A stretch of DNA of 64,000 nt from positions 186,001 through 250,000 of the forward strand of contig RHLJ01000005.1 of the NCBI GenBank assembly GCA_003712055.1, written 5' to 3'. This DNA comes from Balneola sp. (GTDB taxonomy: Bacteria > Bacteroidota > Rhodothermia > Balneolales > Balneolaceae). A program made the translations under genes and the position numbers. The notes beneath the pieces were generated by a model that made no database searches, had not been told where the DNA came from, and worked only from the letters and a program-made list of their open reading frames with translations. This document shows positions 5,515 to 47,444 of the stretch, piece after piece. How positions within the stretch are numbered: position 1 is the first letter of the stretch; the number at the start of each line of letters is the position of its first letter.

Positions 5515-5571
5515 GTTAATAGTTATTGGTTAATGGTGATAACGAATAACCATTAACCAATAACTATTAAC
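5515..5571. repeat. AT-rich palindrome, copy A (likely bidirectional terminator)
   Basis: Perfect 23-bp inverted repeat, arms 5515-5537 and 5549-5571, with an 11-nt loop; it sits between the converging MutS-like and GH16 genes. The core GTTATTGGTTAATGG recurs near 20800, 24151 and 29277. The stem could end transcripts from both sides, although there is no clear T-run after it. Confidence 0.85.
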
Positions 5572-12186: not shown

Positions 12187-12196
12187 TATGTCACCC

Positions 12197-12267
12197 AGAG
12201 CGAAGCGAAGGGTCTGCAAAACACTATGTATTGTGGTTAAGATTGTGTGGATTCATCGCTTCGCTCT
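12197..12267. repeat. 11-bp inverted repeat (AGAGCGAAGCG type)
   Basis: Arms 12197-12207 and 12257-12267 are perfect inverted copies 49 bp apart, just after the stop of the hypothetical gene at 12186. It adjoins the paired-hairpin element at 12284 and may be part of a larger composite repeat or a weak transcript end. Confidence 0.7.
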
Positions 12268-12283
12268 GAAAGACCTTAAAATC

Positions 12284-12384
12284 ATTCCGAACTTGTTTCG
12301 GAATCTTACGGAAAGGCTTTGATTGAATATTTATTTATTAATCGTTTTATGAGCCTCACAAAGATCCTGAAACGAGTTCAGGAT
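12284..12384. repeat. 101-bp paired-hairpin element, copy 1
   Basis: Two 8-bp hairpins with 5-nt loops at the ends of a 101-bp unit: ATTCCGAA/TTCGGAAT (12284-12304, loop CTTGT) and ATCCTGAA/TTCAGGAT (12364-12384, loop ACGAG). The inner segment ending AATCG.TTTAT.AGC.TCAC.AAG is shared with the copy at 46715-46815. It lies in the gap before the Rieske-ThDP gene. Confidence 0.85.
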
Positions 12385-12416
12385 GACCAAGAAATTATTA
12401 ATCAAATAAACCCACT

Positions 12417-14366
12417 ATGAGCGATACCCTAATCTGGCACAAAGTCCTCGACAACAAAGAAGACCTTCCCGAAGGAAGAGTAATGACCGTTACTGCAGGT
12501 CATAAAGGAATTTGCCTCACCCATTTTGAACGCACCTATTCGGCTTTAGACAACAAGTGCCCCCATCAGGGAGGGCCTTTAGGAGAAGGAAGTATCGAAA
12601 ATGGAATGCTCCGTTGCCCATGGCACGGCTGGGATTATCATCCCTGTACAGGAAACTCACCCGGGGGCTTTGATGATGGCGTGGATGCCTATGCAATCAA
12701 AGAAGAAGGCGGAGCTATTTATGTAGGCCTTGAGCCAGAGAAACCTCATGAAACTACCATTTCTGATGTAATGGTAGAAACCATGATTAACTGGGGAGTA
12801 AACACGGTATTTGGAATGGTAGGGCATTCCAATCTTGGTTTTGCTGATGCCATGCGCCGACAGGAAGAAAAAGGGAATCTTCGGTTCTTTGGAATCCGGC
12901 ATGAAGGAGCTGCTTCGTTCGCAGCCTCAGCCTATGGAAAGCTGACCGGAAAACCAGCTGGGTGTTTTGCAATTGCCGGACCGGGTTCGACCAATATGTA
13001 CACCGGTTTATGGGATGCCAAAGTAGACCGCGCTCCCATTCTGGCGCTAACCGGACAGGTAGCCACGCAGGTAGTAGGAACCGGAAATTTCCAGGAACTG
13101 GATTTGGTACAGGCTTTTGACTCAGTAGCCGAGTTCAATCATAGAGTAGGAGCAACCAGCAGGCATGCAGAATTGATGTCTTTAGCAGTAAAACATGCAA
13201 TCCTGAAACGGGACGTCTCACATCTCACCTTTCCTGATGAAGTGCAGGAAACGCCAGCTCCGGCGCATGCCAAAGCAAAAACTCCGGAGAATCGAATCAC
13301 CCCAATGAACATTGCTCCTCCAAAAGAAAGCTTTGATAAAGCAGTCGGGATGCTCAATGAATCAAAACGCCCGGTTATCATAGTTGGTCATGGAGCTCGT
13401 TTCCATATGGATCAGGTCATTAGCTTTGCAGAAAATCTGAAATGCCCGGTGCTTACCACCTTTAAAGGAAAAGGACAGATATCGGATCATCATCCATTAG
13501 GCTGTGGAGTATTAGGGCGCAGTGGAACCCCAATCGCATCCTGGTTTATGAATGAATCAGATTTACTGTTAGTAGTAGGCGCTTCCTTCTCCAATCACAC
13601 AGGAATCACTCCCAAGAAACCAACCATCCAGATTGATTTCGATCCATTAGCACTAAGTAAATTCCACCAGGTAGACGCTGCTGTTTGGGGAGAGATTTCT
13701 GTTACTATGGAAATGTTTGAAGAATCAGGCATCACCCTGGACAACAAAAATGACAATATCCAGGAAATCGCTGATCGATGGGAAATCTGGCGAACAGAAA
13801 AAACGAAGCGCCTGATTGAAGATCATGGACAAGGAGTAAGCTCCATTGCTGTATTTGATGCCTTAAACCAACATGCCCCAGAAAATGCGGTGATGTGTGT
13901 GGATGTGGGTAACAACGCCTATTCCTTTGGCCGCTACTATGAAAGCAAAGACAACACCTTTTTGATGTCCGGGTACCTTGGTTCCATCGGTTTTGCTTTA
14001 CCTGCTGCTATGGGAGCCTGGACGGCTGTTGGAAAAGACCGTCCGGTAATAGCAGTAGCAGGGGATGGAGGCTTTTGCCAGTATTTAGCCGAAATGACAA
14101 CCCTGGTTAAATACAATATGCCCATTAAAGTGATTGTGCTAAACAACAACGAACTGGGTAAAATCTCCAAAGAACAACGAGCTGGTGAATTGGATGTGTG
14201 GGCGACCAGCCTATCCAATCCCGAATTTGCAGAATATGCCAAAGGCTGTGGAGCTAAAGGAATACTTGTTACCGAGCGAGATCAATTAGATGCTGCCATG
14301 CAGGAACTCTTTGCCCACGATGGTCCGGCGCTCCTTGAGATTAAGACGGATGTGAGTTTGATTTAG
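12417..14366 (+). CDS. Rieske domain fused to ThDP-dependent 2-oxoacid-metabolising enzyme
   Basis: A 649-residue fusion. Residues 1-105 are a Rieske domain (Cys48-x-His50, Cys67-x2-His70). The rest is a full ThDP enzyme of the acetolactate synthase/pyruvate oxidase/benzoylformate decarboxylase superfamily: catalytic Glu163 in GIRHEGAASFAA, a central Rossmann-like domain (about 300-430), and the ThDP/Mg motif GDGG (549-552) to NNN (576-578). ThDP enzymes that pass electrons on from a 2-oxoacid exist (pyruvate:quinone oxidoreductase); the fused Rieske domain suggests a comparable one-electron exit. The central domain shows no obvious FAD clue I can verify. It lies 230 bp after the preceding cluster gene, so may have its own promoter, but shares strand and theme. 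Substrate unknown. Confidence 0.93.
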   Translation: MSDTLIWHKVLDNKEDLPEGRVMTVTAGHKGICLTHFERTYSALDNKCPHQGGPLGEGSIENGMLRCPWHGWDYHPCTGNSPGGFDDGVDAYAIKEEGGAIYVGLEPEKPHETTISDVMVETMINWGVNTVFGMVGHSNLGFADAMRRQEEKGNLRFFGIRHEGAASFAASAYGKLTGKPAGCFAIAGPGSTNMYTGLWDAKVDRAPILALTGQVATQVVGTGNFQELDLVQAFDSVAEFNHRVGATSRHAELMSLAVKHAILKRDVSHLTFPDEVQETPAPAHAKAKTPENRITPMNIAPPKESFDKAVGMLNESKRPVIIVGHGARFHMDQVISFAENLKCPVLTTFKGKGQISDHHPLGCGVLGRSGTPIASWFMNESDLLLVVGASFSNHTGITPKKPTIQIDFDPLALSKFHQVDAAVWGEISVTMEMFEESGITLDNKNDNIQEIADRWEIWRTEKTKRLIEDHGQGVSSIAVFDALNQHAPENAVMCVDVGNNAYSFGRYYESKDNTFLMSGYLGSIGFALPAAMGAWTAVGKDRPVIAVAGDGGFCQYLAEMTTLVKYNMPIKVIVLNNNELGKISKEQRAGELDVWATSLSNPEFAEYAKGCGAKGILVTERDQLDAAMQELFAHDGPALLEIKTDVSLI

Positions 14367-18578: not shown

Positions 18579-19128
18579 ATGAAATTCACCTTTACTTGAT
18601 ACTTTTGACCGAGCAAAAGTATCCAAAACCCGTCGTAAGAAATGTAGATACCGTTCTCGTTCTACACCGTCGCTGATTATCTCACCAAATCACGATCCTA
18701 TCAACTACCAAAATAACTCCTACCGCATTTCTTCCGGAGTTGGTTTGGAAATTTTTCCTAGTTCCGCCTTAGAAATTAGAATGGGTACAGTGAATAGAAG
18801 TATTTGCGTACCCGAAGGGTGAATAAATCCACACCGGATGAAAAGAGTTAACGATTGAGGCAGATCGTGGACCTTTGGATTTATTCAGCATATACTTTAT
18901 GAACGCCATTCAAATTTCGTAGCGGAGAGCTTTTGGTTCTGGAGCTTGCACTGAGGAAGCTCAGTGTCGGTACAAAAGAACATATTTCTGGTATCATTGA
19001 TAAAAACTTCGATATAGTTTCGAGTTAATCCGCGAGCTTACCACTACAGATCCCGGATCAAGTCCGGGATGACTTAAAAAATAAATCTCAAACATTCCCC
19101 CCATCCTTTTTTCTTTCTACTTTTAGGA
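18579..19128. repeat. 550-bp non-coding region with several inverted repeats
   Basis: No credible gene is seen. Structures in order: a 10-bp hairpin GATACTTTTG/CAAAAGTATC (18598-18607/18614-18623); an 11-bp inverted repeat GAATAAATCCA/TGGATTTATTC (18821-18831/18876-18886); a 7-bp hairpin CACTGAG/CTCAGTG (18949-18955/18960-18966); and a hairpin ATCCCGGA/TCCGGGAT with a 5-nt loop (19050-19057/19063-19070), like one half of the 101-bp elements. It looks like a composite of repeat units or the remains of a mobile element, and must also contain the aguB promoter near its end. Confidence 0.7.
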
Positions 19129-24150: not shown

Positions 24151-24206
24151 GTTATTCGTTAATGGTTATTGGTGAACTCCCTTACCAATAACCATTAACG
24201 AGTAAC
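24151..24206. repeat. AT-rich palindrome, copy B
   Basis: 23-bp arms 24151-24173 and 24184-24206 with one mismatch and a 10-nt loop, between two minus-strand genes. Its sequence words (CGTTAATGGTTATTGG) match copy A at 5515, with halves in swapped order. It probably ends the DUF427 transcript. Confidence 0.85.
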
Positions 24207-29151: not shown

Positions 29152-29276
29152 TCTTTTTTAAAGAAAGTAAGAAGTTTTTGATATGAACCTAAATTTCAAA
29201 TTTGATAGGCTTTATAAAAACTCTATTAAATTTGGACATATGGTTTACATTTTCTATCCACTTAGGGTGCCGCAGC

Positions 29277-29319
29277 GTTATTGGTTATTTGTTGATCACG
29301 TTACCAATAACAAATAACC
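29277..29319. repeat. AT-rich palindrome, copy C, with two alternative hairpins
   Basis: Two mutually exclusive stems can be drawn: GTTATTGGT/ACCAATAAC (29277-29285 with 29303-29311) or GGTTATTTGTT/AACAAATAACC (29283-29293 with 29309-29319). It is a variant of the palindromes at 5515 and 24151, and sits 111 bp before the ATG of the first exporter permease. Confidence 0.75.
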
Positions 29320-46529: not shown

Positions 46530-46880
46530 CTTTATTCGTTTTAGTTATTGAATAGGATGACTCAAAAGTAGGAGTGGAGCTATTCTATTGTCTTATACCA
46601 GATTTCGAATCTTGTATACTTTTTGGGTTTTCATAGCAATTTCAATAATAAAATTTCAATAATAAAAAGGGAGAGAACTCGGTTATGCTTGGAATAGAAA
46701 TAATTAAGTAAGTCATCCTGAACTTGTTTCAGGATCTTTTGGTAGGGCGTTGACTACTTATTCTCTCGGCAATCGCTTTATAAGCTTCACGAAGATGCCG
46801 AAACAAGTTCGGCATGATGGGTTTAACATTTCTTTTAAGTCCAATACCGACCTTGCTGTGATTATCTATCAAATCGATTG
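46530..46880. other. Intergenic region with tandem and paired-hairpin repeats
   Basis: 351 bp without a gene. It holds two perfect copies of a 14-bp unit ATTTCAATAATAAA (46639-46666), then the second 101-bp paired-hairpin element (46715-46815). The part next to 46529 should contain the SDR promoter; I cannot place its boxes. Confidence 0.7.
46715..46815. repeat. 101-bp paired-hairpin element, copy 2
   Basis: Hairpins ATCCTGAA/TTCAGGAT (46715-46735, loop CTTGT) and ATGCCGAA/TTCGGCAT (46795-46815, loop ACAAG), total length identical to copy 1 (12284-12384). The region before the second hairpin (AATCGCTTTATAAGCTTCACGAAG) aligns with copy 1, while stem bases differ in a paired manner. Confidence 0.85.
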
Positions 46881-47261: not shown

Positions 47262-47368
47262 GTTTATCTATTTCTTAACGATTTCTGAACTGAGAAGATA
47301 AACAAGTTTGAGACTATTGCTCGAATAAAGCGATGGGAGTCAAAGATTTGAACGATCTGCTGAATGTG

Positions 47369-47444
47369 TCATTCCGCGGCGAAAGCCGGAATCTAGAATT
47401 GAGGTTTAAGCAAAAACTAGATTCCTGCCTTCGCAGGAATGACC
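47369..47444. repeat. 76-bp element with terminal inverted repeats, MITE-like
   Basis: Starts GTCATTCC and ends GGAATGAC. Each end is itself a hairpin (ATTCC...GGAAT at 47372-47393, loop GAAA; ATTCCTGC/GCAGGAAT at 47422-47429/47434-47441), and the inner flanks AATCTAG/CTAGATT (47391-47397/47418-47424) pair as well. The plan of ATTCC-N-GGAAT ends recalls the Neisseria dRS3-type repeat. It lies between the lon stop and the DUF1428 gene. Confidence 0.8.

Follow-up and report, generated by a model that had tools for sequence, protein, structure and literature searches.

The window analysed here (a 64,000-nucleotide stretch of a Balneola sp. genome) contains two copies of a paired-hairpin repeat whose right-hand stems differ by paired base changes, and the question raised by this locus is whether the repeat is constrained as a folded nucleic acid and, if so, by which enzyme it is spread. 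A sequence-only reading had proposed a REP/BIME-like element driven by a RAYT (REP-associated Y1 transposase). Overall, our analysis retains one part of this interpretation (the paired stems, the REP-like doublet and the constraint on folding) but not the RAYT driver, the associated gene being that of a small GIY-YIG nuclease.

Anatomy of the window copies

The first copy (12281–12387 with its tags, plus strand) has a B-type left end and a C-type right end and, at 115.3 bits, is the best match in the genome of the covariance model R1 described below. Its left hairpin (12281–12306, plus strand; stem 12284–12304, type TCC/GGA; DNA fold z −4.46) carries the tag ATC in place of GTC and is separated from the right hairpin (12362–12387, minus strand; stem type CCT/AGG), a hairpin pattern match, by a 55-nt spacer (12307–12361, plus strand) reading TACGGAAAGGCT... 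at the B end and, in reverse, TTGTGAGGCTCA... at the C end. The unit is intergenic, with an ATG at 12417, ∼30 bp downstream. The second copy (46712–46818, plus strand; 106.2 bits with R1) likewise has a B-type left end and a C-type right end and consists of a left hairpin (46712–46737, plus strand; type CCT/AGG), a 55-nt spacer (46738–46792, plus strand) and a right hairpin (46793–46818, minus strand; type GCC/GGC); it is intergenic, between two minus-strand genes. Counted from the first to the last stem base, each copy is exactly 101 nt long (12284–12384 and 46715–46815), as had been noted, and the right-hand stems are indeed CCTGAA/TTCAGG (copy 1) and GCCGAA/TTCGGC (copy 2). The two copies are identical at 76 of 107 positions overall and at 35 of 55 in the spacer. 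Their equal length is typical rather than special, since 42 pattern-found units from six genomes span 100–113 nt.

Further tagged hairpins occur in the window. A single one, GTCATCCCGGACTTGATCCGGGATCT, is a pattern match at 19048–19073 (minus strand), and another doublet is formed by a left half at 47368–47394 (plus strand) and a right half, GTCATTCCTGCGAAGGCAGGAATCT, at 47419–47443 (minus strand), the latter of the type found beside the GIY-YIG genes L301 and L302. This doublet (47368–47443) is of the GCGAAGGC type and lies ∼550 bp from copy 2. A second GTC-tagged family, GTCACCCAGAGCGAAGCGAAGGGTCT, was read from the sequence at 12190–12215 (plus strand), with a degenerate partner at ∼12251–12275; this repeat (12190–12275) directly adjoins copy 1 and resembles hairpins near other GIY-YIG clades.

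Family size and covariation

The hairpin pattern matched five times in the window against 0.23 expected from shuffles, and 86 times in the 3.63-Mb genome against none for a reversed control pattern; with the stem and loop positions left free, the genome gave 168 matches against 11 for the reversed control. These excesses show that the hairpin matches are not due to chance. The genome-wide covariance-model search suggested by the sequence-only reading (model R1, built from 25 aligned units) gave 95 host matches at E ≤ 0.001 among the 150 first-look candidates scored, a number that includes both strands of a near-palindromic unit and thus corresponds to roughly half as many places. The paired stem changes extend across the genome: of 74 hairpins found with zero mismatches, 73, 73 and 72 have a Watson–Crick pair at the first, second and third free position of the stem, as compared with shuffle means of 37.5, 36.5 and 58.0. 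All 24 close hairpin pairs converge, so that head-to-head dimers predominate, and the description of the repeat as a dispersed, two-hairpin, REP-like doublet holds.

Across the 25 aligned units, pairing within the two local hairpins reaches 98.4% and their covariation is 0.319 (0.129 in shuffles), whereas the stem that would join one arm to the other is 87.2% paired, below all 500 shuffles. Hence the arms are selected for pairing with themselves and against pairing with each other, and the proposed constraint on a folded nucleic acid is borne out by this local covariation together with the paired stem changes. Covariation is also seen in the loop, between positions 10 and 13 (C-G in 112 and T-A in 16 of 132, making 128 of 132 paired vs a mean of 100.7 and a maximum of 112 in shuffles), as though this pair closed a loop of two bases. 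The stem has eight pairs and the loop five nucleotides, the first pairs being A-U and then U-A in both hairpins of all 25 rows. The trinucleotide GTC is present at 82 of 84 unit ends, preceded by any of the four bases A, C, G and T, and the tail CT is found in the window copies and in 25/25 aligned units, although the search pattern itself required CT.

A coding element with the same ends

Two 387-bp versions of the window unit each enclose a complete 96-aa GIY-YIG gene (Pfam PF01541 matches of 1.1e-15 and 1.6e-13 for the two proteins). As the enclosed gene encodes a GIY-YIG protein and not a Y1 transposase, these units do not qualify as elements of the IS200/IS605 type. A third GIY-YIG gene of the same genome (L263) has one hairpin left. 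In 45/45 GIY-YIG proteins there is no variation at the catalytic residues (Y, Y, G, R, H and E).

When scored with a profile derived from units of 105 bp, ends upstream of the gene were C-type in 9 of 12 cases (of the remaining three, L243 is shifted by one base, L315 is weak and L244 is B-like) and ends downstream of it were B-type in 9/9. Ten units of intermediate size (133–246 bp) have the polarity of the coding elements (B ends 10/10, C ends 9/10), and several of them align to coding elements at the ends only. The window copies have both ends, and their polarity, in common with the coding element and are therefore best read as its non-autonomous derivatives.

Paralogous coding elements occupy unrelated loci, and in the clearest pairs (L241 vs L263 and L241 vs L245) the hairpin's outer edge is where similarity between the dispersed elements sets in; in other pairs it runs ∼45–150 nt past the hairpin. 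Five long units (L221 and L229–L232) have sequence in common that extends tens of bases past the hairpins at either end, so these may have moved within, or be nested in, a larger repeat. A search for empty sites of the window copies gave no clean junction: for copy 1 the best matches of the neighbouring gene in four relatives were 30–32% identical, with no orthologous site, and for copy 2 the one orthologue (79%, in G018) had no tagged hairpin in 3.9 kb and a different upstream gene.

Overall, we consider it probable that the window copies are non-autonomous, GTC-tagged inverted hairpin doublets (dimers of the CGTC type of REP), the autonomous form of which is a ∼390-bp element with the same ends and one 96-aa GIY-YIG gene, spread by the putative nuclease. 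This reading brings together the anatomy, covariation, end polarity, deletion intermediates, gene–repeat link and cognate pattern observed here. Mechanistically, the two hairpins would fold separately in single-stranded DNA (on the lagging-strand template, or during uptake or repair), the cognate GIY-YIG nuclease may recognise the tag, stem and loop and cut near the hairpins, and repair or rejoining could then copy the hairpin-to-hairpin unit elsewhere.

RAYT genes and the repeat

Spread by a RAYT, as of a REPIN, was attractive because the overall anatomy matches (an inverted hairpin doublet, a 5′ tag and a 3′ CT) and because the genome contains a single RAYT (NF047646, 115 bits), with a longer tagged element 243 bp downstream of it. 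On the other hand, a tagged hairpin lies no more than 300 bp away from only 3/27 RAYT/IS200 loci and on both sides of 0/27, so that none of these loci showed the expected arrangement of a RAYT gene between two such hairpins. One of the three hairpin-near loci (L036) is the RAYT of the window genome itself, the immediate flanks of which are copies of an unrelated palindrome, and another (L037) adjoins a GIY-YIG gene (L251). RAYT-bearing relatives lack the units (G005, G012 and G020, for example, have 0, 3 and 4 matches to R1 vs 95 in the window genome), and the tag is GTC, not GTAG. A RAYT as the driver of the window repeats is therefore not supported, and this explanation is very improbable.

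This RAYT of the window genome (L033, G000:C5:32948-33403) lies between copies of that unrelated palindrome, which is CCGTAGCTCAGCTGCGGAAC-like, has a partial second RAYT copy upstream, and is a REPtron of its own.

Association of GIY-YIG genes with tagged hairpins

A strict tagged hairpin was defined as GTC, five perfect pairs starting A-Y, and CT, and was counted as near when within 300 bp. By this measure, small GIY-YIG genes had a tagged hairpin near in 48 of 97 cases and on both sides in 34 (leaving out the long frames L279, L296 and L298), as compared with the 3/27 and 0/27 of the RAYT/IS200 control (leaving out L035, L047, L051, L054 and L062, which are short loci or have odd coordinates). 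A second control, the UvrC domain, gave 0/20, though it is weak downstream, where UvrC's own coding sequence lies. A later search in the class of Pedobacter terrae gave 21/30 near and 14/30 on both sides (65 hairpins near vs 4 far), and in the class of an alphaproteobacterial MAG, with a looser tail (C only), the values were 13/30 and 4/30 (25 near vs 9 far). In 38 relatives, the best 12 GIY-YIG matches (at least 105 bits) all have hairpins of the window-unit type nearby, and units were found in 5/7 relatives with such a match and in 0/31 without. GIY-YIG genes enclosed by or adjacent to tagged hairpins are also present in genomes titled Paceibacterota, Elusimicrobium, Saprospiraceae, Sphingobacteriaceae and Melainabacteria.

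A tree was built from 93 proteins. Of the 46 genes in it that bear hairpins, 45 belong to a single clade of 67 (support 92), and the remaining one is placed among the 26 rows outside it; the tree has few columns, proteins outside 75–135 aa were left out, and the row L306, mistranslated and of odd make-up, forms a very long branch. Protein and hairpin similarity are correlated between genomes (rho 0.387, exceeding all 2000 within-genome permutations) and also within genomes, and nuclease clades and hairpin families diverge together; examples of the cognate hairpin types are GAACTTGTTTC, GCGAAGGC and GAGGATACCTCCGAAG. As many of the loci are related, the P values overstate their independence.

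The association has exceptions on both sides. About half of the small GIY-YIG genes are without a strict hairpin, many of them UPF0213-like and others with variant repeats (seen by eye only), and members of the hairpin clade without a tagged hairpin have other repeat types, again as judged by eye. No unit was found at the pattern level in G007 and G012, each with a nuclease of at least 105 bits; in these and other genomes the hairpins closest to the gene point away from it and do not enclose it. Conversely, of 39 named carriers searched, seven (G066, G068, G070, G083, G085, G089 and G090, most of them MAGs) gave only long-frame matches such as UvrC, so that the repeat occurs in some carriers without a small nuclease.

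Probable folding as DNA and the heterodimer rule

With DNA parameters two separate hairpins are favored over one long stem in 23/25 real units, and in 0/50 sequences altered so that both arms are identical copies; under RNA parameters the separate hairpins prevail in 6/25 and the long arm-to-arm stem in 19/25. These energies come from explicit, hand-set structures and are rough, but the opposite outcomes favor folding of the unit as single-stranded DNA. In closely spaced units the two arms would have to differ, or else both might anneal into one long hairpin. Short units (∼105 bp) from six genomes had like arms in 0/42 cases vs 8.1 expected (P 1.5e-4, within-genome shuffles), and homodimers make up 9/15 longer units and coding elements (some of the long units being near copies of each other) vs 0/40 units of 115 nt or less (Fisher 7.9e-7). 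The confinement of homodimers to longer units ties the heterodimer rule to closely spaced arms, which would be expected to anneal if they were identical. An absolute rule was rejected, as homodimers are marked in other taxa, e.g. Saprospiraceae and Patescibacteria (93 pattern-found units of the genome_contigs set, each with at least 4/5 pairs in both hairpins); in its strict form the rule is shown for short units of the Balneolaceae group only.

Alternative explanations

The GIY-YIG protein might be a site-specific single-strand nuclease cutting the repeats for control of DNA uptake, for defence or for recombination, with the repeats themselves spread by host repair. The cognate pairing of nucleases with hairpins and the invariant catalytic residues fit this explanation equally well, and such a role has reportedly been described in Neisseria (see below); we nevertheless hold it to be unlikely, as a gene inside hairpin-bounded units with matching ends looks like self-spreading, and so do the numerous deletion derivatives and the paralogous elements at unrelated loci. 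An element acting at the RNA level (a terminator, or an RNase-resistant or regulatory transcript structure) would agree with the very stable structures obtained by RNA folding and with unit midpoints falling outside open frames of at least 120 codons in 42/42 units. Such a role is quite improbable, given that the covarying hairpins prevail when folded as DNA and the long stem when folded as RNA, that four loci gave no Rfam match at E up to 1, and that the nuclease link would be left unexplained.

A coincidental association would arise if repeats and small accessory genes both gathered in long intergenic stretches. RAYT and GIY-YIG genes are indeed both accessory and intergenic-rich, and the L037/L251 locus carries one of each. 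Clustering of this kind is nonetheless scarcely credible in view of the far lower scores of the RAYT controls, the falling off of hairpins with distance (52 near vs 8 far, and likewise in the later search) and the single hairpin-bearing case among the 26 small GIY-YIG rows outside the main clade.

Relation to known nucleases and repeats

The AlphaFold model of the GIY-YIG protein (pLDDT 78.6) weakly resembles structures of UPF0213 (PDB 1zg2, 1ywl) and Slx1 (6seh), with a best E of 1.9e-3, and these proteins have the domain in common; according to the title of its entry, Slx1 cuts branched DNA. UPF0213 differs in its setting: of the 26 rows that the tree places outside the hairpin clade, many of which look UPF0213-like on inspection by eye, one has tagged hairpins. 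A literature search combining GIY-YIG with REP terms found no link between the two among the papers listed. A 2025 paper in Nature Communications on Ssn (site-specific single-stranded nucleases of the GIY-YIG superfamily) is said to describe small GIY-YIG enzymes that cut single-stranded DNA site-specifically and have cognate repeats, in hundreds of copies, in Neisseria, reportedly with an emphasis on natural transformation and tools; the GIY-YIG catalytic residues would be a common feature, being present in 45/45 of our proteins. That work may already hold part of the answer: it would support the proposed enzymology and reduces the novelty of the gene–repeat link. What can be claimed here is the element architecture, the derivation of the doublets, the testing of cognate pairing in several families and the interpretation of heterodimers through DNA folding.

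Among known repeats, the closest are the CGTC REPs, which have a 5′ tag CGTC (or TGTC, CCTC), a stem of 8–9 bp with A-T as the first two pairs, a loop of 4–5 nt and an unpaired tail that fits CCA in most of them but not all (PMC3733652). Bacteroidetes are among their named hosts, and they prefer heterodimers, a preference left unexplained there (Di Nocera, De Gregorio and Rocco 2013, PMC3733652); a dedicated transposase is apparently lacking, according to the closing statement of this 2013 survey (PMC3733652). The window family is alike in its 8-bp stem beginning with A-T, its 5-nt loop, its unpaired tag ending in GTC, its head-to-head dimers, its preference for heterodimers and the lack of a RAYT link; it differs in a tail CT instead of CCA, in the free base before GTC, and in the GIY-YIG gene and the energetic explanation of heterodimers proposed here (PMC3733652). 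REPIN/BIME elements with their RAYT (TnpAREP) likewise form inverted doublets with a 5′ tag and CT beside the hairpin, with one cognate nuclease per repeat family and the nuclease gene flanked by the repeat, but their tag is GTAG and their nuclease a HUH tyrosine enzyme, as opposed to GTC and GIY-YIG here (PMC8266576).

A broader proposal, which we advance tentatively and with slightly more doubt than trust, is that small GIY-YIG proteins are the missing partners of the whole superfamily of GTC-tagged REPs in several phyla. The ∼390-bp element would then be transposase-less mobile DNA with a nuclease that targets a pair of hairpins, each folded on its own in single-stranded DNA; its deletion derivatives would be the REP doublets, and the heterodimer rule would follow from keeping the hairpins from annealing. 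If the GIY-YIG link is true, an enzyme could be named for the widespread CGTC-type REPs, and the question would be testable with one protein and one oligonucleotide. It would also provide a physical reason for the heterodimer preference, left without explanation in the 2013 survey (PMC3733652), and would place among selfish elements many small proteins whose sole annotation is that of a GIY-YIG nuclease.

Additional observations

Tandem arrangements were seen in three places. In G244 (L437 742-5383) a 457-bp sequence is repeated in tandem in ten nearly identical copies, each of which contains a GIY-YIG frame and a sequence resembling a tRNA 3′ end; tagged hairpins were absent from this array. 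A tandem array of doublets is present in a Melioribacteraceae MAG (L064 148-868), and in the genome of a Sphingobacteriaceae member from a lichen another surrounds a GIY-YIG gene (L295). Within the window, an AT-rich palindromic repeat of a separate family (with GTTAATGGTTATTGG-like arms) occupies at least three places (5515–5571, 24151–24206 and 29271–29318), and 12417–14366 encodes a Rieske [2Fe-2S] domain fused to a thiamine pyrophosphate enzyme.
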